NCBI GenBank assembly: GCA_002425225.1
Contig: DILV01000004.1
Coordinates: forward strand, 1-49,766
Direction: 5' to 3'
DNA length: 49,766 bases
Origin: Thiothrix sp. UBA5583
Lineage (GTDB): Bacteria; Pseudomonadota; Gammaproteobacteria; Thiotrichales; Thiotrichaceae
Below the pieces are notes generated by a model. It saw only the letters and a program-made list of their open reading frames with translations, was not told the DNA's origin and made no database searches. Below are positions 32,330 through 43,508 of the stretch, one piece after another (position 1 is the stretch's first letter; each line of letters begins with the position of its first letter). Position numbers and translations under genes: made by a program.

Positions 32330-33109
32330 TCACCGCCGTTCGATCATCTTTTTCTTCAGTTCGCCAATGGCCTTGGCTGGGTTCAGACCTTTCGGGCAGG
32401 TATTGGTACAGTTCATGATGGTATGGCAACGGTACAGGCGGAACGGATCTTCAAGGTTGTCGAGACGTTCACCGGTTGCTTCATCACGACTGTCCACCAC
32501 CCAACGGTAGGCTTGCAGCAGTACTGCCGGGCCGAGGTAACGGTCACTGTTCCACCAGTAGCTGGGGCAGGAGGTGGAACAGCTTGCGCACAGGATACAC
32601 TCGTACAGGCCATCCAGTTTCTTGCGGTCTTCCGGTGATTGCAGGTGCTCACGGTCAGGTGGAGCAGGTGTCCGGGTTTGCATCCACGGCTTGATGGAAG
32701 CATATTGCGCATAGAAATGGGTCAGGTCAGGAACCAGGTCTTTCACCACGGACATGTGTGGTAATGGGCTGATCTGGAGATCGCCATCAAACGCACCAAT
32801 CGCCTTGATACAAGCCAGCGTGTTGGTTCCACCGATATTCATCGAGCAGGAACCACAAATCCCTTCACGGCAGGAACGGCGGAAGGTCAGGGATGGGTCA
32901 ATCTCGTTCTTGATCTTCAACAGCGCATCTAGCACCATCGGCCCGCACTTGTCGAGGTCGATTTGGTAGGTATCCCAGCGAGGGTTCTGCCCGCTATCCG
33001 GGTCGTAACGGTAGATGCGGAAGTTTTTCACTCGGGTCGCACCGGCAGGCGCAGGCCAGGTTTTGCCTTCCTTGATCACAGAGTTGGCAGGTAACTTGAA
33101 TTCAGCCAT
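32330..33109 (-). CDS. sdhB: Succinate dehydrogenase iron-sulfur subunit
   Basis: 259 residues. The plant-type [2Fe-2S] site is CREGICGSC with a later Cys in NTLAC. The [4Fe-4S] site is [12 protein letters not shown]. The [3Fe-4S] site is [14 protein letters not shown]. It carries electrons from SdhA to quinone at the inner membrane. It follows sdhA by 11 bases. An N-terminal extension of about 25 residues compared with E. coli SdhB is present. Confidence 0.97.
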
Positions 33110-33120
33110 GACACTTCCCC

Positions 33121-34908
33121 TTAGTAAACCCGTTTTTTCGGTGCGATGTATTCAACTTCATCCGTCAGCGTGTAGGTGTGGACGGGGCGGTAGTCGATCT
33201 TGACTTTGCCGGATTCATCTACCCAGGCGACAGAGTGCTTCATCCAAGTGTCGTCATCACGATCCGGGAAGTCTTCACGGGCATGTGCGCCACGGCTTTC
33301 TTCACGGTTGAGGGCGCAGTTGATGGAGACCTGGGCGCAATCCAGCAGGTTCGCCAACTCAAAGGTTTCCATCAGGTCAGAGTTCCACACCAGGCTGCGG
33401 TCAGAAACGTTGACATCATTGAAGCTGGTATAAATGTCATTCATTTTCGCCACACCTTCCTGCATGGAGTCACCCGTGCGGAATACGGCAGCGTGTTTCT
33501 GCATGGTGCGCTGCATATTGTCGCGGATTTGTGCAGTTGTCAGCTTGCCGTTAGCCTGATGGATGCGTTTGAAACGATCCATTGCTTTTTGTACGCCTGA
33601 TTCTGGCAGGTTGTGTTGTACTGCCCCCGGTGTCAGGGTTTCGGCACAACGGTTAGCGGCAGCACGCCCGAACACTACGATGTCGAGCAGCGAGTTGGAG
33701 CCAAGGCGGTTGGCACCGTGGACGGATACGCAAGCACATTCGCCAATGGCCATCAGACCGGGAACCACGCTGTCAGGGTTCCCATCCTTTAGGGTGACAA
33801 CTTCGCCATGATAGTTGGTAGGGATGCCACCCATGTTGTAATGCACGGTTGGCAGTACTGGAATCGGTTCTTTGGTTACGTCCACACCGGCGAAGATTTT
33901 TGCACTTTCGGCGATACCTGGCAGGCGTTCGTGGATAACTTCCGCACCCAGATGTTCCAGATGGATATGGATATGGTCTTTCTGCGGACCAACCCCACGG
34001 CCTTCGTTGATTTCCACGGTCATGGCACGGCTTACTACATCACGCGAAGCCAGATCTTTGGCGTTCGGTGCATAACGTTCCATGAAACGCTCGCCCTGTG
34101 AATTGGTCAGGTAGCCGCCTTCACCCCGCACGCCTTCGGTAATCAGGCAGCCGGAGCCGTAGATGCCGGTGGGGTGGAACTGGGTAAATTCCATGTCCTG
34201 CAAGGGCAGGCCAGCGCGAGCGACCATGCCGTTACCGTCACCAGTACAGGTATGGGCAGAAGTGGCAGAGAAGTAGGCACGACCGTAACCACCGGTTGCC
34301 AGCACCACTTGCTGGGCACGGAACAGGCGCAGGATGCCGTTTGCCAAGTCCCATGCCATCACGCCACGGCACACGCCATCTTCGTCCATGATCAGGTCGG
34401 TGGCGAAATGCTCGATGAAGAATACCGCATTATGACGCAGTGATTGCTGGTACAGGGTATGCAGGATGGCGTGACCAGTACGGTCAGCCGCAGCGCAAGT
34501 ACGCTGGGCAATGCCTTTGCCGAATTCGGTGGTCATGCCGCCGAACGGGCGCTGGTAAATACGACCATCTTCGGTGCGAGAGAAGGGTACACCTTGGTGT
34601 TCCAGTTCGATAACTGCCGGGATGGCTTCGCGGCACATGTATTCGATGGCATCTTGGTCGCCCAGCCAGTCGGAACCTTTTACGGTGTCATACATGTGCC
34701 ATTGCCATTTGTCCGGCCCCATGTTGCCAAGTGCGGCAGACATACCACCCTGTGCCGCCACGGTATGGCTGCGAGTTGGGAAGACTTTGGTGATACAGGC
34801 TGTGGACAAGCCTTTTACCGCCATCCCGAAAGTGGCACGCAAACCCGCGCCGCCCGCACCTACCACTACAACGTCATAGGTATGGTGTTCAATCTTGTAT
34901 TCGGTCAT
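33121..34908 (-). CDS. sdhA: Succinate dehydrogenase flavoprotein subunit
   Basis: 595 residues. FAD-binding [15 protein letters not shown] near residue 15, the FAD-linking His in [41 protein letters not shown], the substrate-site HPTGIYGSG and [20 protein letters not shown]. It oxidises succinate to fumarate with covalent FAD, the step served by SdhE in the same operon. Length and motifs are standard. Confidence 0.97.
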
Positions 34909-34928: not shown

Positions 34929-35309
34929 TCAGCCCGCAAATGCAACACGTAAAACACTCAGAATGCTGCTGGTTCCCAGCAAGACCAGTACCAGTTTCAT
35001 GGCGACCAGCGCTGTTACCTTCACGCCATCATGATGGATATAGTCTTCGATAACCACAGTCAGCCCCTGGCTGGCGTGGAAGAAAGCGGTGAACACAAAC
35101 AGGGTCAGCATGGTGGTGGTGAAAGGTTTGGCAAACCAAGCGGCAACCGTGGCGTAATCAGCACCCACGTGGGAAGCGACGGCAAAGGCAACCCACAGGG
35201 TCAATGGAACGAGTGCCACCGCAGTCATGCGCTGCATCCACCAGTGTTTCACGCCGTCACTGGTACTGCCTAGGCCACTGGCCCGTTTGAAAGGCGTCAA
35301 CAAACTCAT
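34929..35309 (-). CDS. sdhD: Succinate dehydrogenase membrane anchor SdhD
   Basis: 126 residues from ATG 35309, which has a GAGGAG site 8 nt upstream. A TTG six bases earlier is not needed. Three membrane helices are seen, with WWMQRMTAVALVPLTLWV and FHASQGLTVVIEDYIH, whose His is a likely haem or quinone-site ligand. It follows sdhC by 22 bases. Confidence 0.93.
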   Translation of the reverse strand: MSLLTPFKRASGLGSTSDGVKHWWMQRMTAVALVPLTLWVAFAVASHVGADYATVAAWFAKPFTTTMLTLFVFTAFFHASQGLTVVIEDYIHHDGVKVTALVAMKLVLVLLGTSSILSVLRVAFAG

Positions 35310-35331
35310 CAGCAAAACTCCTCAACAGGCT

Positions 35332-35709
35332 TCAGGCAACAATCCACAGCAGGACAGTCAGAACAAACGATGCACCTACCACAATCTTGCCGCTTAGGTA
35401 GACGGTAGGTAGGTCAAAACCGAAACCGGTATCCCACATCAGGTGGCGGATACCGTTGGACAGGTGATAGAACAGCGCCCATGTCCAGCCAAATAACACT
35501 ACTTTGCCTAAAAAAGAGCCAAGAATGGCATTGGCAGCGTTGAAGGTTTCAACCCCTCCGGCAAGTGCAGACAGCCAGTACGTAACCAGCAGCGTACCCA
35601 CTGCCAGCACGATACCTGTGCCACGATGCAGGATGGATAGCACCGAAGTGATTTGCGGTTTGTAAATTTGCAAATGCGGCGACATTGGTCGGTTTTGCGT
35701 GTTCTTCAT
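35332..35709 (-). CDS. sdhC: Succinate dehydrogenase cytochrome b556 subunit SdhC
   Basis: 125 residues from ATG 35709 with a GGGGAA ribosome site. The SdhC signature SPHLQIYKPQITSVLSILHRGTG is complete. The haem-ligand region HLSNGIRHLMWDTGFGFDL contains the conserved His. Three helices. It starts 40 bases after gntR in the same direction, so the operon probably begins with the regulator. Confidence 0.95.
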   Translation of the reverse strand: MKNTQNRPMSPHLQIYKPQITSVLSILHRGTGIVLAVGTLLVTYWLSALAGGVETFNAANAILGSFLGKVVLFGWTWALFYHLSNGIRHLMWDTGFGFDLPTVYLSGKIVVGASFVLTVLLWIVA

Positions 35710-35749
35710 GGATATTCCCCGTTGGTACAAATTCTGCGTAACACTGCTC

Positions 35750-36439
35750 TCAAACTTCGGATGGTGACACTTTATCCAGCATCTTGCAGGCATAATCCCG
35801 TGATGCCCTGATATGATGACGCATCAGGGTTTCTGCCATTTCCCCGTCACGTCGCTCAATAGCCGCCACAATCAGGTTGTGTTCCTGAAATGCCTGTTCA
35901 CTGCGGTTGAAGCTGGCCTTGAGACGGAAGCGGTAAAACCGCACTAGGTCGTACAAGTCCTGGCACAACATGCGGATCAGGCGCGAATTCTTGCTTCCCT
36001 GGATGATGGAAAAGTGAAAATCGAGATCAACATCTTGCTGGGAATAGTTATGGTGTTGATCAATTTCCGCTTTATGCCGTTCCAAGATACGTCGCAGCCG
36101 CGCCACTTCATCCTCTGCCATGTTCTCTGCTGCCAACCGTGCAGCCATGCCTTCCATCGCTTCGCGTATCTGGTAAATTTCCATCAACTGCGAAGTCGAG
36201 AATCCGATGATGCGTGCACCAATATTGGGCTTGCGCGTCACCAGATTGCAATTTTCCAGTTTGCCAATCGCCTCCCGCAATGAACCCCGGCTTACGCCAT
36301 AGGCTGTGGCTAGTTCGGGTTCACTAATTTTTTTGCCAGCCGGGAGTTCCCCTTCCAGGATGGCACGGCGCAGATCAAGGAAAAGCTTGTCTGCAATCGT
36401 AACCGGCTCCTGTAACTTACATGCCGTTGCAAATGCCAT
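35750..36439 (-). CDS. GntR/FadR-family regulator, probable TCA-cycle regulator
   Basis: 229 residues from ATG 36439 (MAFATACK), which has GAGGAG 5 nt upstream. An ATG 12 bases earlier has none. The winged helix (residues 15-80) includes ISEPELATAYGVSRGSLREAIGKLE. The C-terminal FCD domain contains DLDFHFSII, an EHNLIVAAI helix and LMRHHIRASRDY, the usual acid/His metal-ligand set. The gene leads the sdh operon and faces sucA. TGTCGACA-type palindromes at its own promoter, at sucA and before sucB fit a FadR-type operator. Autoregulation and control of sdh, sucA and sucB are inferred. The effector may be a carboxylate. Confidence 0.88.
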   Translation of the reverse strand: MAFATACKLQEPVTIADKLFLDLRRAILEGELPAGKKISEPELATAYGVSRGSLREAIGKLENCNLVTRKPNIGARIIGFSTSQLMEIYQIREAMEGMAARLAAENMAEDEVARLRRILERHKAEIDQHHNYSQQDVDLDFHFSIIQGSKNSRLIRMLCQDLYDLVRFYRFRLKASFNRSEQAFQEHNLIVAAIERRDGEMAETLMRHHIRASRDYACKMLDKVSPSEV

Positions 36440-36455
36440 GGTGCTCCTCATATTT

Positions 36456-36633
36456 TGTCGACATATTGTCTGTTATGTTGACAATAATACCCTGAAACAG
36501 CGTTTTTTCAAGCGAAACATCCTGACATTGTTGACACTTTCAAGTTATAATGTCGACATCATAACGAGAAAGTGACAGTGTATGACTTGAAAAACAGCCT
36601 TGCATTGCAGCATTTGACATCAAGATGTCGACA
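36456..36633. promoter_or_regulatory. Divergent gntR-sdh/sucA control region with five operator palindromes
   Basis: TGTCGACA occurs at 36456-36463, 36551-36558 and 36626-36633. The one-base variant TGTTGACA occurs at 36476-36483 and 36529-36536. Minus promoter: TTGAAA (36506-36511), 16 bp, TATTAT (36484-36489), with a variant site directly beyond the -10. Plus promoter: CTGACA (36522-36527), 18 bp, TATAAT (36546-36551), with a variant site in the spacer and a perfect site starting on the last T of the -10. The arrangement predicts repression of both promoters. Confidence 0.75.
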
Positions 36634-36702
36634 ATGCACTATTTTGCTGCGATGCGTCAAGTCAGGAGTGTTTGATATTTACCATCAAAGTAGGTTGAAA
36701 AG

Positions 36703-39546
36703 ATGAATAAAGGTGAAGGGCAGGCTACGGCCTGGAATGCTGATACACAACTCGACGGCAACAGCATTTTATATTTGGAGGAAATGTACGAGCGTTACCT
36801 GGAAGAGCCTGCGTCAATTCCAGCGAGCTGGCAGCACTATTTTGATGCATTGCCACAAGTCAACGGGCAGGAACGGGATACCCGCCATTCTTTGGTGCAA
36901 GACTATTTCCGAGCCTATGCTGCCAAACCCCAGGCGTTCGCTACTCCATCTGCTGGTGGAGCCGATCTGGAGCATGAGCGCAAACAAGTTAAAGTATTGC
37001 AGCTTATCAATGCTTACCGTTTCCTTGGGCACTTCCATGCCAAAACTAACCCACTAGATGAGGCCGCACCCTCTTTCGTCAAAGAGCTGACCCTAGCTCA
37101 TCACGGGCTTGGTGAGGGAGATCTCAAAACCACTTTTAACACGGGATCACTGGTTGGTCCTGATCAGATGACCTTGCGTGACATCGTAGCGCAACTGGAA
37201 GCAACTTACTGTGGACATGTCGGCGTGCAATACATGCACACCACCAGCACCGAGCAGAAACGCTGGGTTCAGCAGCGTCTGGAAAGTATCCGCTCCAAAG
37301 CTGAGTTCAGCAAGGAAGAGAAGCTCGAAATCCTCGACCGTCTCACGGCTGCCGAAGGTCTGGAACGTTACCTGCATACCAATTACGTCGGTCAGAAACG
37401 CTTCTCGCTGGAAGGTGGTGAAAGCATGATTCCGATGCTGAACAGCCTGATCCAGCACGCCGGTAGTCTGGGAGCACAGGAAATGGTAATCGGCATGGCA
37501 CACCGTGGTCGCTTGAACGTGCTGGTCAACGTGCTGGGCAAAGCTCCATCCCTGCTGTTCGGCGAGTTTGAAGGTAAGTATGCCAATGTGGGCGACCGTA
37601 CTGGTGATGTGAAATACCACATGGGTTTTGCCTCTGACATGATGACACCGGGTGGTCAGTTGCACGTGGCGATGGCATTCAACCCGTCGCATCTGGAAAT
37701 CGTCGGTCCAGTGGTGGAAGGTGCGGTACGCGCCCGTCAGGATCGCTGGGATGAAGGTTCCGGCAACAAGATCATTCCAGTGGTGTTACACGGTGATGCT
37801 GCATTTGCCGGTCAGGGCGTCAACATGGAAATGCTGCAAATGGCAGACACCCGTGGCTACCGCACTTACGGCACGATCCATATCGTCATCAATAACCAGG
37901 TTGGTTTCACCACCAGTGCAGCAGCAGATGCACGTTCCACCTATTACTGTACCGATGTCGCCAAAATGGTTGACTCGCCCGTGTTCCACGTCAATGGCGA
38001 TGACCCTGAAGCTGTGGTGCTGGTGACGAAAATTGCCATGGATTACCGCAACACCTTTAAAAAGGATGTGGTGATTGATCTGGTGTGCTACCGCCGCCAC
38101 GGTCACAACGAAGCGGATGAGCCTTCCGCTACCCAGCCGGTCATGTACCGCAAAATCCGTTCCCTGCCGACCACCCGTGAACTCTATGCCCGCCAGCTTG
38201 CGGCTGAAGGTGTCATCAGTGCAGAAGAAGCGAAGGAACGTGTGCAACGTTGCCGCCAGCAATTGACCGAAGGTGCACCTACCGTACCGCACCTGCTGGA
38301 CAAGAGCGAAGCGCAGAATCCGCATCCGGTCAACTGGAAACGCTTTGTCGGCGGAACCTGGGACATGCCGGTGGATACCACCATCGACGCCGAGTCCGTC
38401 AAAACACTAGGTGAGAAGCTGACCGTCCACCCGGAAGGTTTCAAGCTCAACTCCCGTGTTGCGCGTATTGTCGCAGACCGCAAGAAAATGGCTGCCGGTG
38501 AGCAACCGATGGATTGGGGTTTCTGTGAAAATTTGGCTTATGCCACCCTGATTGATGAGGGCTATCCTATTCGCCTGTCGGGTGAAGACTGCGGTCGTGG
38601 TACCTTCTTCCATCGCCACGCAGTATTCCACGAGCAGGAAACCGGCGAAACATTCATCCCGCTGCAACACTTGTCTGAGGCGCAACTGCCGTTCGTGGTT
38701 ATCGACTCGTTGCTGTCCGAAGAAGCGGTATTGGGCTTTGAATACGGTTACGCCACTACCGAAGCCAACACCCTGACTATTTGGGAAGCGCAATTCGGTG
38801 ACTTTGCCAACTGTGCGCAAGTAGTTATCGACCAGTTCATCAGTTCCGGTGAACAGAAGTGGGGGCGTTTGTGTGGTTTGGTGATGTTGTTGCCGCACGG
38901 CTTTGAAGGGCAGGGGCCTGAGCACTCTTCCGCGCGTCTGGAGCGTTACCTGCAACTGTGCGCCCAGGACAACATGCAGGTCTGTGTGCCAAGTACCCCG
39001 GCGCAAGCCTTCCACATGCTGCGTCGCCAGATGTTGCGTGACTACCGCACACCACTGATCGTAATGACACCGAAGAGCCTGCTGCGTCACCCGTTGGCTG
39101 TCAACAGCATGGAAGACCTCACTGAGCGTGGCTTCCAGAACGTGATTGATGAAATCGACGCAATTGACCCGCAAAAAGTTACTCGCTTGGTCATGTGCAG
39201 TGGCAAGGTTTACTACGATTTGCTGGAAAAGCGTCGTGCAGAAAAGCTTGAGCATGTTGCCATTGTGCGTGTAGAGCAACTCTATCCGTTCCCGGAAGCG
39301 GACATGAATGCCATGCTTGACCGTTACCCCAATGTTGATGTCAATGTCTGGTGTCAGGAAGAGCCGCTCAATCAGGGCGCATGGCTGAGTATCCAGCCGT
39401 CCCTGCGTCAAGTGCTGGGTGGTCTGGCTCGTCTGGATGTGGCAAGCCGTCCGGCGTCTGCTTCACCAGCGGTGGGTAGCCCCAAGGTTCACGCCAAGCA
39501 GCAGCAATCATTGGTCAACTCTGCATTGGGAATTATCACGCCATAA
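36703..39546 (+). CDS. sucA: 2-oxoglutarate dehydrogenase E1 component
   Basis: 947 residues. The thiamine-diphosphate enzyme decarboxylates 2-oxoglutarate and loads the succinyl group onto SucB. It has the N-terminal YLEEMYERYLEEPASIPASWQHYF helix for complex assembly, IGMAHRGRLNVLVNVLGK, GDAAFAGQGVNMEMLQM, HIVINNQVGFTTS, and the CYRRHGHNEADEPSATQP TDP/Mg region. The C-terminal part is a transketolase-type Pyr domain. Ribosome site AGTAGG. First gene of the plus-strand TCA block, behind the GntR operators. Confidence 0.97.
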   Translation: MNKGEGQATAWNADTQLDGNSILYLEEMYERYLEEPASIPASWQHYFDALPQVNGQERDTRHSLVQDYFRAYAAKPQAFATPSAGGADLEHERKQVKVLQLINAYRFLGHFHAKTNPLDEAAPSFVKELTLAHHGLGEGDLKTTFNTGSLVGPDQMTLRDIVAQLEATYCGHVGVQYMHTTSTEQKRWVQQRLESIRSKAEFSKEEKLEILDRLTAAEGLERYLHTNYVGQKRFSLEGGESMIPMLNSLIQHAGSLGAQEMVIGMAHRGRLNVLVNVLGKAPSLLFGEFEGKYANVGDRTGDVKYHMGFASDMMTPGGQLHVAMAFNPSHLEIVGPVVEGAVRARQDRWDEGSGNKIIPVVLHGDAAFAGQGVNMEMLQMADTRGYRTYGTIHIVINNQVGFTTSAAADARSTYYCTDVAKMVDSPVFHVNGDDPEAVVLVTKIAMDYRNTFKKDVVIDLVCYRRHGHNEADEPSATQPVMYRKIRSLPTTRELYARQLAAEGVISAEEAKERVQRCRQQLTEGAPTVPHLLDKSEAQNPHPVNWKRFVGGTWDMPVDTTIDAESVKTLGEKLTVHPEGFKLNSRVARIVADRKKMAAGEQPMDWGFCENLAYATLIDEGYPIRLSGEDCGRGTFFHRHAVFHEQETGETFIPLQHLSEAQLPFVVIDSLLSEEAVLGFEYGYATTEANTLTIWEAQFGDFANCAQVVIDQFISSGEQKWGRLCGLVMLLPHGFEGQGPEHSSARLERYLQLCAQDNMQVCVPSTPAQAFHMLRRQMLRDYRTPLIVMTPKSLLRHPLAVNSMEDLTERGFQNVIDEIDAIDPQKVTRLVMCSGKVYYDLLEKRRAEKLEHVAIVRVEQLYPFPEADMNAMLDRYPNVDVNVWCQEEPLNQGAWLSIQPSLRQVLGGLARLDVASRPASASPAVGSPKVHAKQQQSLVNSALGIITP

Positions 39547-39563
39547 ACTTGAGGGGAGATATT

Positions 39564-40682
39564 ATGCCGCTTATGAAGCATTATCAGGATGCCATCAGCG
39601 AGGGTGTGATCCAGCAAGATCCCGCCCAACTTGAAGGTATCAGGGTGTTGCAGAAAGTTTGGGACGAGTTGCTTACGCCACGAACCAAAACCGTGGCTTC
39701 ACGCAGCTTGCTCGCTGTATTTTCCAGGCGGAATAACGTTGCCCCTGTCGTTGAACCTGTGCGCGGCGCTTACTTGTGGGGCGGCGTCGGGCGCGGCAAG
39801 ACGTGGTTGATGGATATGTTCTATTCGCGCATTCCGCTGACTGAAAAGCGGCGGATGCACTACCACCATTTCATGTTCTTCATTCATGAAGAGCTGAAAA
39901 AACTCGCGATGCATCGTAATCCTCTGGATATGCTGGTAGCAAACTGCTCTAAGGAAGTACACCTGTTGTGCATCGACGAATTTCACGTCATGGATATTGT
40001 CGATGCCATGCTGCTGCACGGTTTGCTGGATGCGATGGGTAGACATGGCATTACCTTGGTGACGACTTCCAATCGCACGCCCGACGATTTGTACCTGAAT
40101 GGCTTGCAACGTGAACGTTTCTTGCCCGCAATCGCCTGGTTGAAACGGCACACTCATGTGGTCGAGTTGGATAACCACATCGACTACCGCATGTTAAAAC
40201 ACGTCAGCCATGACAGCTTTCTGGAAGATGAAGCTGCCATTTTGGTGGAGCATGAGCTAGAAAAGCATTTTGCCAAATTGGCAAAAGGGCATATCCATGT
40301 CGGCAAGGACATCGAGGTGCAAGGACGGATTCTGCCTGCCCATCGGGTGGCAGATAACATTATCTGGTTTGATTTTAATACCTTGTGTGAAACGGCTCGT
40401 TCTACACGCGATTACATCGAATTGGCTGAGCGCTTTGAATACATCATGCTTTCTGGTTTACATGTGATGAATGAAGAGCATGAAGAGGCTGCCCGACGTT
40501 TTCTCAATCTGATTGACGAGCTATATGATCGTGGTGTGCAGTTCATTTTTCCGACTGCCATCGCCCTGGAGGATCTTTACAAAGGGCAAAAGCTCAAGTT
40601 TGAATTTCAGCGTGCATTGAGCCGGTTGAATCAGATGAAGGGTGCTGAGTGTCAGCAGATGAAGTTGGGCGCGGTAGGCTGA
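39564..40682 (+). CDS. zapE: ZapE/AFG1-like P-loop ATPase
   Basis: 372 residues from ATG 39564 (MPLMKHYQD), with a GGGGAG site. E. coli ZapE has 375. Walker A is YLWGGVGRGKTWLMDMFY near residue 67, Walker B is LLCIDEFHVMDIVDA near 135, and TTSNRTPDDLYLNGLQRERFLPAI follows. AFG1 proteins act in mitochondrial protein quality control, and ZapE acts at the bacterial divisome. Its place between sucA and sucB is unusual. It starts 17 bases after sucA and probably shares its transcript. Confidence 0.92.
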   Translation: MPLMKHYQDAISEGVIQQDPAQLEGIRVLQKVWDELLTPRTKTVASRSLLAVFSRRNNVAPVVEPVRGAYLWGGVGRGKTWLMDMFYSRIPLTEKRRMHYHHFMFFIHEELKKLAMHRNPLDMLVANCSKEVHLLCIDEFHVMDIVDAMLLHGLLDAMGRHGITLVTTSNRTPDDLYLNGLQRERFLPAIAWLKRHTHVVELDNHIDYRMLKHVSHDSFLEDEAAILVEHELEKHFAKLAKGHIHVGKDIEVQGRILPAHRVADNIIWFDFNTLCETARSTRDYIELAERFEYIMLSGLHVMNEEHEEAARRFLNLIDELYDRGVQFIFPTAIALEDLYKGQKLKFEFQRALSRLNQMKGAECQQMKLGAVG

Positions 40683-40685
40683 AAT

Positions 40686-40754
40686 CCTTAAAATGTCGAC
40701 AATTTAAGGGATTAATCCTTTAAAACTTCTGCAAACGCGCGTACAATGTCGACA
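40686..40754 (+). promoter_or_regulatory. sucB promoter with two TGTCGACA operators
   Basis: Perfect TGTCGACA sites lie at 40694-40701 and 40747-40754. The first is at the centre of a 24-bp near-perfect palindrome (40686-40709). The likely promoter is TTTAAA (40719-40724), 17 bp, TACAAT (40742-40747). The second operator begins on the last T of the -10, exactly as at sucA. The upstream palindrome could alternatively help end the zapE transcript. Confidence 0.72.
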
Positions 40755-40848: not shown

Positions 40849-42060
40849 ATGAGCAGTGAGATTCTGACACCGGTACTGCCGGAGTCCGTCGCCGATGCGA
40901 CCGTGGTTGCATGGAGCAAAAAGCCCGGTGATGCCGTCAAACAAGACGAAGTACTGGTTGAAATTGAAACCGACAAAGTGGTGCTCGAAGTACCAGCCCC
41001 CGCAGATGGCGTATTGATCGAAATCGTGCAAGATGCCGGTGCAACTGTTACCAGCAGCCAGTTGCTGGGTCGCATGGAAGTAGGCGCTGTCGCTGCTGCA
41101 CCTGCTCCTCAAGTTGCAACTGCCCAGGCTGAAGCACCTGCTGTGCCTGCCGCTGATCCTCAAACTGCTCCCGCCGCCCGCAAGCTGATGGCTGAAAACA
41201 ACCTTTCTGCTTCTGATGTGGAAGGTTCTGGTAAGCAAGGCCGTATCCTCAAGGAAGATGTGCAAGCTGCTGTTGCTGCCAAACCAGCCGCCGCTCCCGC
41301 GCCTGAGGCATCTGCCGCTCCCGCGCCTGCTCCAACAGTTGTGGTTGCCGCTTCCGGCTCCCGCATGGAACAGCGTGTGCCGATGACCCGCCTGCGTGCC
41401 CGCATTGCCGAGCGCCTGATGTACGCCAAATCCTCAACTGCGATGCTGACCACTTTCAACGAAGTCGACATGAAGCCGTTGATGGACATGCGCAACGAAT
41501 ACAAAGACGTATTCGAGAAAAAACACAAGGCGAAACTGGGTTTGATGTCCCTGTTCGTCAAGGCAGCCGCTGTCGCGCTGCAACGGTTCCCTGAAATCAA
41601 TGCCTCCATCGATGGCAATGATATTGTTTACCACGGCTACTGTGACATCGGTATCGCCGTTTCCTCAGATCGCGGTCTGGTGGTTCCTATCCTGCGTAAT
41701 GTTGAAAACATGGGTCTGGCTGGCATTGAATCCGGCATTGCCGGTTATGCTGCCAAAGCCCGTGAAGGCAAGCTGGATATGAATGACCTGTCCGGCGGAA
41801 CGTTCACCATAACCAACGGGGGCGTTTTTGGGTCGTTGCTATCAACCCCAATTCTAAACCCTCCTCAAAGCGCGATCCTGGGGATGCACTCGATCCAGAA
41901 GCGCCCTGTCGTTGTTAATGACCAGATCGTTATCCGCCCGATGATGTACGTGGCTCTGTCTTACGACCACCGCATTGTTGACGGTCAAGGTGCTGTTACT
42001 TTCCTCAAAACCATCAAGGAACTGGTCGAAAACCCGGTTCGCCTGATTTTGGAAGTGTGA
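40849..42060 (+). CDS. sucB: 2-oxoglutarate dehydrogenase E2 component (dihydrolipoyl succinyltransferase)
   Basis: 403 residues. The lipoyl domain has [17 protein letters not shown] with the modified Lys. An Ala/Pro linker precedes the peripheral-subunit-binding domain ([30 protein letters not shown]). The catalytic domain ends with [20 protein letters not shown], containing the His and Asp-Gly active-site motif. It forms the complex core between SucA and Lpd. A GAGG ribosome site precedes the ATG. Confidence 0.97.
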
Positions 42061-42065
42061 GGTAA

Positions 42066-43508
<1,443 letters not shown>

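Follow-up and report, generated by a model that had tools for sequence, protein, structure and literature searches.

A PmiR-like GntR regulator as the probable reader of conserved palindromes at tricarboxylic acid cycle promoters of Thiothrix and its relatives

Palindromes at the gntR1-sdh and suc control regions

Here we analyse a stretch of DNA from Thiothrix sp. UBA5583 (contig DILV01000004.1), focusing on a set of short palindromes in the control regions of tricarboxylic acid (TCA) cycle genes and on GntR1, the regulator encoded by gntR1 at the same locus. The window is the entire contig of 49,766 bases, which belongs to a 3.55-Mb genome (the own genome, G000). Its minus strand carries gntR1, sdhC, sdhD, sdhA and sdhB, and its plus strand sucA, zapE, sucB, lpdA, sucC, sucD, gltA and acnB, in that order. 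The genes flanking the palindromes are:

32330-33109, minus strand: sdhB, downstream of gntR1 (NCBIfam)
33121-34908, minus strand: sdhA, downstream of gntR1 (NCBIfam)
34929-35315, minus strand: sdhD, downstream of gntR1 (NCBIfam)
35332-35793, minus strand: sdhC, downstream of gntR1 (NCBIfam)
35750-36451, minus strand: gntR1 (P0001, 233 aa), a PmiR-like regulator with a GntR winged helix-turn-helix and an FCD domain, leading the sdh operon (Pfam and PDB match)
36703-39546, plus strand: sucA (NCBIfam equivalog above cut-off)
39549-40682, plus strand: zapE (NCBIfam equivalog above cut-off)
40849-42060, plus strand: sucB (NCBIfam)
42072-43508, plus strand: lpdA (NCBIfam)

A first-pass annotation of this DNA had reported five copies of TGTCGACA and two of the variant TGTTGACA, and we find exactly these, the former starting at 36456, 36551, 36626, 40694 and 40747 and the latter at 36476 and 36529. 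Promoters in the window were predicted by consensus match only. The operators (unstranded; invariance is across 16 Thiothrix genomes) and the promoters are:

36456-36463: operator 1, TGTCGACA, between the gntR1 promoter and the gntR1 start; 8/8 bases invariant
36476-36483: operator 2, TGTTGACA, abutting the -10 of the gntR1-sdh promoter; 4/8 invariant, mean identity 0.967
36484-36511, minus strand: predicted gntR1-sdh promoter, TTGAAA-16-TATTAT; 10/12 consensus matches
36522-36551, plus strand: predicted sucA promoter, CTGACA-18-TATAAT; 11/12 consensus matches
36529-36536: operator 3, TGTTGACA, within the sucA promoter spacer, 53 bp from operator 2; 8/8 invariant
36551-36558: operator 4, TGTCGACA, beginning on the final T of the sucA -10; 8/8 invariant
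36626-36633: operator 5, TGTCGACA, downstream of the sucA promoter; 8/8 invariant
40694-40701: operator 6, TGTCGACA, distal half of the sucB pair, a pair kept in 26/26 genomes of three genera
40719-40747, plus strand: predicted sucB promoter, TTTAAA-17-TACAAT; 9/12 consensus matches
40747-40754: operator 7, TGTCGACA, beginning on the final T of the sucB -10, 53 bp from operator 6 (sequence match and promoter scan)

The placement described in the annotation holds as well: the predicted sucA and sucB promoters end at 36551 and 40747, where operators 4 and 7 start, and the TATTAT of the gntR1-sdh promoter ends at 36484, directly beside operator 2. Repressors classically sit over the -10 and start region. 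Among the five operators of the divergent region, operator 2 varies most, and it is lost in one Thiothrix relative (G050). Two further TGTYRACA sequences in the window, at 39099 and 45843, lie inside the open reading frames (ORFs) of sucA and gltA.

Immediately after operator 5, a block TGCACTATTTTGCTGC (36633-36650) is also conserved in Thiothrix, with 20 of the 27 bases of 36634-36660 invariant; it resembles an NtrC box. Upstream of glnA in the own genome (L109) lies a similar sequence, TGCACAATTTTGGTGC, with an operator between it and a sigma-54-like sequence.

Clustering, conservation and spacing

All five TGTCGACA copies of the window fall within the two control regions. None of 100 dinucleotide shuffles of the window reached five copies (mean 0.77), and only 0.0065 copies are expected in the 417 bp of the control regions, giving a probability of about 1e-13 for at least five; the annotation's claim of clustering beyond chance is thereby borne out. 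A scan of the whole genome gave a divided answer. Bare TGTCGACA occurs 65 times, where the shuffle rate would give about 55, and its genome-wide over-representation was rejected as near chance, whereas the longer core ATTGTCGACAAT, with at most two mismatches, is matched 254 times in the own genome as against 76 for the reversed control. The signal is promoter clustering together with the longer core, not the abundance of bare TGTCGACA.

For comparison, we grouped relatives into Thiothrix (g1), Thiofilum (g7) and a group here called Thiolinea (g8), which holds records named Thiolinea disciformis and Thiothrix eikelboomii. Conservation at orthologous genes, one of the checks the annotation had proposed, is pronounced. 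All 16 Thiothrix genomes carry three TGTCGACA copies in the gntR1-sucA divergent region. In their alignment, 36 of the 40 operator bases are invariant (mean identity 0.993), as are 20 of the 23 bases of promoter hexamers outside the operators, against 48 of 154 in the remainder (mean identity 0.724). GntR1 orthologs are found in 16/16 Thiothrix, 1/1 Thiofilum and 8/9 Thiolinea genomes, and gntR1 adjoins sdhC in 15/15 Thiothrix relatives and in Thiofilum but not at any g8 locus that was read. There, the gntR1 promoter nevertheless retains operator-like sites and sucB its pair, which argues for an action of GntR1 in trans. Two observations concern the locus itself: in the Thiothrix relatives G054 (L067) and G055 (L074), sucA is absent or only a fragment match within 5 kb of the divergent promoter while the operators there are retained, and in Thiothrix fructosivorans (L127) the locus is part of a record of 446 kb that bears the label plasmid pTfr446.

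Searches across genomes were made without guidance from gene names. The exact 12-mer ATTGTCGACAAT has 59 sites in the 16 Thiothrix genomes, its reversed control none; 54 of these stand at mqo, icd/aceK, two symporters, phaC, acsA, gntR2 (the second GntR/FCD paralog of the same genome), aceK, sucB or nuoA, often at fixed distances (31-35 bases at mqo, 93-95 at icd and 170-173 at the small-subunit symporter). Another search, for operator pairs whose two starts lie 51-54 bp from each other, covered 63 genomes of the order. Pairs occur in 25/25 genomes with GntR1 and in 2/38 without (G007 and G041), the reversed control giving 0/63, so that the co-occurrence with the gntR orthologue that the annotation had wished to see examined is present (Fisher p = 1.4e-15, for relatives that are not independent). 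The pairs occupy 78 distinct places, 76 of them at target promoters. Sixty-four pair loci, one of which holds two places, were read: 25 lie at sucB, 12 at phaE, nine at gntR1 with or without sucA, five at nuoA, four at aceK, three at aceA, two at pckA, one each at acsA and an isocitrate-dehydrogenase-like gene, and two at no target. The other 13 places were assigned by coordinate (10 gntR1 promoters and aceA, gntR1-sucA and sucB of the own genome).

Outside Thiothrix, sites upstream of sucA were found in five of eight genomes with GntR1 and in none of 21 without it (22 loci), including 0/6 that have only a gntR2-type relative. This comparison was given 30 of the 63 order genomes, of which one (G004) has no sucA match, and two regions end at contig ends; among the 15 genomes scored as having neither regulator, G029 shows a weak 31% match. 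Class-wide, 14 of 369 genomes contain a pair, 11 of them among the 366 outside the family. Of these 11, only the four that adjoin a gntR were used as evidence: here the pair stands directly 5' of a PmiR-like gntR (46-59% identity to GntR1; two are from one genus), in one case followed by a citrate/methylcitrate-synthase-like gene as read from its translation.

The geometry of the sites is equally regular. In the 26 Thiothrix, Thiolinea and Thiofilum genomes, the proximal sucB operator begins on the final T of the -10 in 22 and abuts it in four, with the distal operator 52-54 bp farther upstream; TTGAC occurs within 34 bases before the proximal operator in 20/26, with TATAAT at the matching place in most. 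Twelve consecutive operator spacings in the own genome (20, 53, 22, 75, 53, 52, 165, 22, 104, 53, 73 and 63) show phase-locking at a period close to 10.3 bp (R 0.886), a strength reached in 0/20,000 simulations with 15-bp jitter, simulation being the only test used and the period scanned from 10.2 to 10.8. The mqo spacing of 165 fits a period of 10.3, not 10.5; the gntR2 spacing relies on a TGTTAACA site, without which R is 0.876, and the phaE/phaB pair stands outside the set. Because of this phase-locking, dimers are predicted to lie on one face of the helix. Tandem arrays of at least three operators, at steps of about five turns or two turns, were also seen before sucB (L203, G039) and before PmiR-like gntR genes (L258, G408; L263, G148).

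The sites reach well beyond the window. Of the 65 TGTCGACA copies in the own genome, 58 are flanked by A/T on one or both sides, and it is the contexts of these 58 that were read. Twenty-two of the 58 lie upstream of NCBIfam-named metabolic genes or gntR2: the window's five and those at aceA, mqo (two), pckA (three), monomeric icd, glcB, acsA, phaC, the small subunit of a sodium/substrate symporter, an ActP-like symporter, nqrA, nuoA, ppa, glnA and gntR2. For three of these (actP, phaC and gntR2), the longest ORF that a simple caller draws takes in the site, and the start was placed downstream of that site from the sequence. A second site (TGTCAACA or TGTTGACA) accompanies those at aceA, nuoA and glcB, and an additional TGTTGACA pair lies between phaE and phaB. 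The own genome has both class I (phaC) and class III (phaE) polyhydroxyalkanoate (PHA) synthase genes, with operators at each (L049, L202).

The regulator and competing explanations

GntR1 scores 56.3 bits against PF00392 (GntR; cut-off 27) and 102.9 against PF07729 (FCD; cut-off 24.3), which places it in the FadR/FCD subfamily of the GntR family. Residues D144, H146, H191 and H213, candidate FCD metal ligands that correspond to the metal-binding Asp/His set of this domain, are invariant in 17 orthologs. The best PDB match, far above all else, is 7xp0/7xp1 (E 3.7e-63), presumably PmiR of Pseudomonas aeruginosa. Other identities were tried and rejected: PdhR (54.7 bits against an NCBIfam equivalog cut-off of 330), FadR (20.3 and 22.5 against 249.2 and 189), and LldR, NanR, CsiR and PhnR, all under their NCBIfam cut-offs.

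GntR1 is one of three FCD proteins in the own genome, and prp linkage, a mark of PrpR/PmiR, belongs to another of them. There, prpB adjoins gntR2 (prpB match from C40:35235, gntR2 ORF end near C40:35260, within L050, C40:34490-36086), as it does by coordinate in the other Thiothrix genomes, so gntR2 is likely the true methylcitrate regulator. Searches of Thiothrix, Thiolinea and Thiofilum genomes gave no PrpD; given that gntR2 adjoins prpB, the methylcitrate dehydratase step may use another enzyme, and the idea of a lineage without the methylcitrate cycle was dropped. A tree puts gntR2 together with 7xp0 and one regulator linked to prp, and places GntR1 beside a different regulator, linked to prpC (support 88/83, with a long-branch warning). 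Since prp linkage lies with gntR2, and GntR1 adjoins sdh and sucA instead, GntR1 is filed as a PmiR paralog rather than as PmiR, although the operator expected of PrpR/PmiR, the ATTGTCGACAAT motif, is recognisable at the GntR1 locus.

On these grounds of sequence, we consider it probable that the window sites are operators of GntR1, a PmiR/PrpR paralog that in Thiothrix, Thiolinea and Thiofilum has turned into a wide, lineage-specific regulator of oxidative metabolism. GntR1 is the best assignment because of the conservation of the sites, their co-occurrence with gntR1, the PmiR-type motif and the pattern suggesting action in trans. The annotation had proposed this protein as joint regulator of sdhCDAB, sucA-zapE and sucB-lpdA; the conservation, co-occurrence and motif lend support to that assignment, but its scope was too small, as more than a dozen further target promoters are predicted. 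Its picture of a seven-site network needs widening, there being far more sites genome-wide and a second GntR/FCD paralog that possibly reads them.

According to this proposal, GntR1 dimers would bind ATTGTCGACAAT-like palindromes. At the sucB and gntR1-sdh promoters, a first dimer would occupy the start region together with the end of the -10, and another would lie five helical turns (52-54 bp) farther upstream, on the same face of the DNA; the two could clamp or loop the promoter and exclude RNA polymerase. The predicted regulon comprises the 2-oxoglutarate and succinate dehydrogenases, isocitrate dehydrogenase/AceK, the glyoxylate shunt, Mqo, phosphoenolpyruvate carboxykinase, acetate uptake and activation, NADH dehydrogenases and PHA synthesis. 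Most likely, GntR1 represses both these promoters and its own gene, and a small acid releases it. More speculatively, and by analogy, a tricarboxylate is the probable inducer, with isocitrate or citrate as the first candidates because PmiR reportedly senses 2-methylisocitrate (Cui and colleagues, 2022) and because the targets icd, aceK and aceA surround isocitrate.

Several findings weigh against this assignment. The protein encoded by gntR2 also matches 7xp0/7xp1 far above all else, and 7xp0 slightly better than GntR1 does; every genome with GntR1 also has gntR2, with a perfect site in the gntR2 promoter, so that ownership of the sites is inseparable there. The co-occurrence follows a clade and is not phylogenetically independent, and the pair in G041, a genome 67% complete in which GntR1 was not detected, stands before sucB. 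The site before sucA is absent in three of the eight non-Thiothrix genomes with GntR1. Coverage of the cycle is uneven, since the TGTYRACA scan of the window found, as the annotation had stated, no site before sucC, gltA or acnB. The searches carry some background: five of the 59 perfect 12-mers lie within unrelated coding sequence, two of the 78 pair places (in G007 and G055) are inside ORFs without a target, and the class-wide reversed control gave pairs in 6/369 genomes. In the own genome, the remaining 36 of the 58 TGTCGACA copies have no such target (34 in ORFs of the simple caller, two intergenic), the second glcB site falls just within coding sequence, and for glnA, ppa, nqrA and glcB the observation of sites covers the own genome alone.

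Among other explanations, the main rival is one that extends the assignment to GntR1: the two paralogs may compete for one operator code and so integrate a propionate signal (2-methylisocitrate) with a TCA signal (e.g. isocitrate). The core motifs at gntR2 and at TCA promoters are very similar, as are the recognition helices (SRGSLREAI, GRGPLREAL and SRGPLREAI), but the wing residues differ (KPNIGAR vs VPHAGAR), which may tune specificity, and the centre at gntR2 is CA/TG or TA in most relatives; we hold such competition to be possible, though tentatively. A fuller version is doubtful: in it, a duplicate of the methylcitrate repressor would have captured most of the TCA, glyoxylate, acetate, PHA and NADH-dehydrogenase network, with propionate and TCA sensors, both keeping one operator code, competing on phased, promoter-straddling pairs as a two-dimer clamp over RNA polymerase.

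We think it unlikely that gntR2 mainly reads the sites, which would leave GntR1 a minor or specialised role and make TCA control a side branch of the propionate response. Its place beside prpB, the like motif in its promoter and its slightly closer match to 7xp0 would fit such a role, yet the six relatives with only a gntR2-type relative have no sucA sites, the 12 genomes of group g2 show a pair only in G007, inside an ORF, and the expanded regulon tracks the GntR1 clade. Even less probable is a reader from a different family, neither related nor linked, that is confined to these genera: conservation alone names no protein, but the motif equals the one predicted for the subfamily of GntR1, and outside the family the paired motif stands directly before PmiR-like genes in four genomes. 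To chance or non-regulatory palindromes we give next to no weight, for although bare TGTCGACA is near its chance frequency genome-wide and its core contains the SalI hexamer GTCGAC, promoter position, conservation and coherence of targets speak against them.

Relation to known systems

Thiothrix is known from wastewater and sulfidic springs, and the assignment to GntR1 bears on its mixotrophy and PHA storage. It names one candidate TCA regulator, to which it attaches an exact operator code, a list of targets and a rule of geometry, and it may offer a natural case of rewiring after duplication, in which a local methylcitrate repressor became a wide regulator while its sister stays beside prpB with a like motif. 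In the open-access literature searched, we recognised no paper describing the GntR1 regulon, a prediction in Suvorova et al. 2012 being possible, and no TCA-cycle regulator for these filamentous sulfur-oxidising bacteria; the ATTGTCGACAAT motif itself probably goes back to that 2012 study.

Other GntR-family regulators offer partial parallels. SdhR is a GntR-family regulator, as GntR1 is, and takes its name from sdh, but it belongs to the HutC subfamily and recognises a different, 26-bp palindrome, TCTTATGTCTTATATAAGACATAAGA (PMC4494728). Knockout of the Neisseria meningitidis GntR protein NMB1563 alters 141 genes and raises the prpB-prpC operon, with part of the effect tied to the small RNA Bns1 (PMC4423775); its comparison with GntR1 concerns knockout effects. 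In the Shewanellaceae, PdhR has extended its reach beyond a single local operon to sdhCDAB, gltA, aceAB and others (PMC5343134), and it thus resembles GntR1 in the spread of a GntR-family regulator to TCA genes while differing from it in subfamily and target set. The closest parallel is PrpR/PmiR (PA0797) of P. aeruginosa, for which a ATTGTCGACAAT motif is predicted and which binds its own upstream region in electrophoretic mobility shift assays and represses prp (PMC9765439). It is the best solved relative of GntR1 by sequence and shares the same predicted palindrome; in contrast to this methylcitrate operon repressor, GntR1 is linked to sdh and suc rather than to prp, with predicted targets in the TCA cycle, the glyoxylate shunt, acetate use, respiration and PHA. 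The family, the motif and, from PdhR, the spread of a GntR regulator to the TCA cycle are already known; the much larger target set, the split between paralogs and the strict spacing rule are new.

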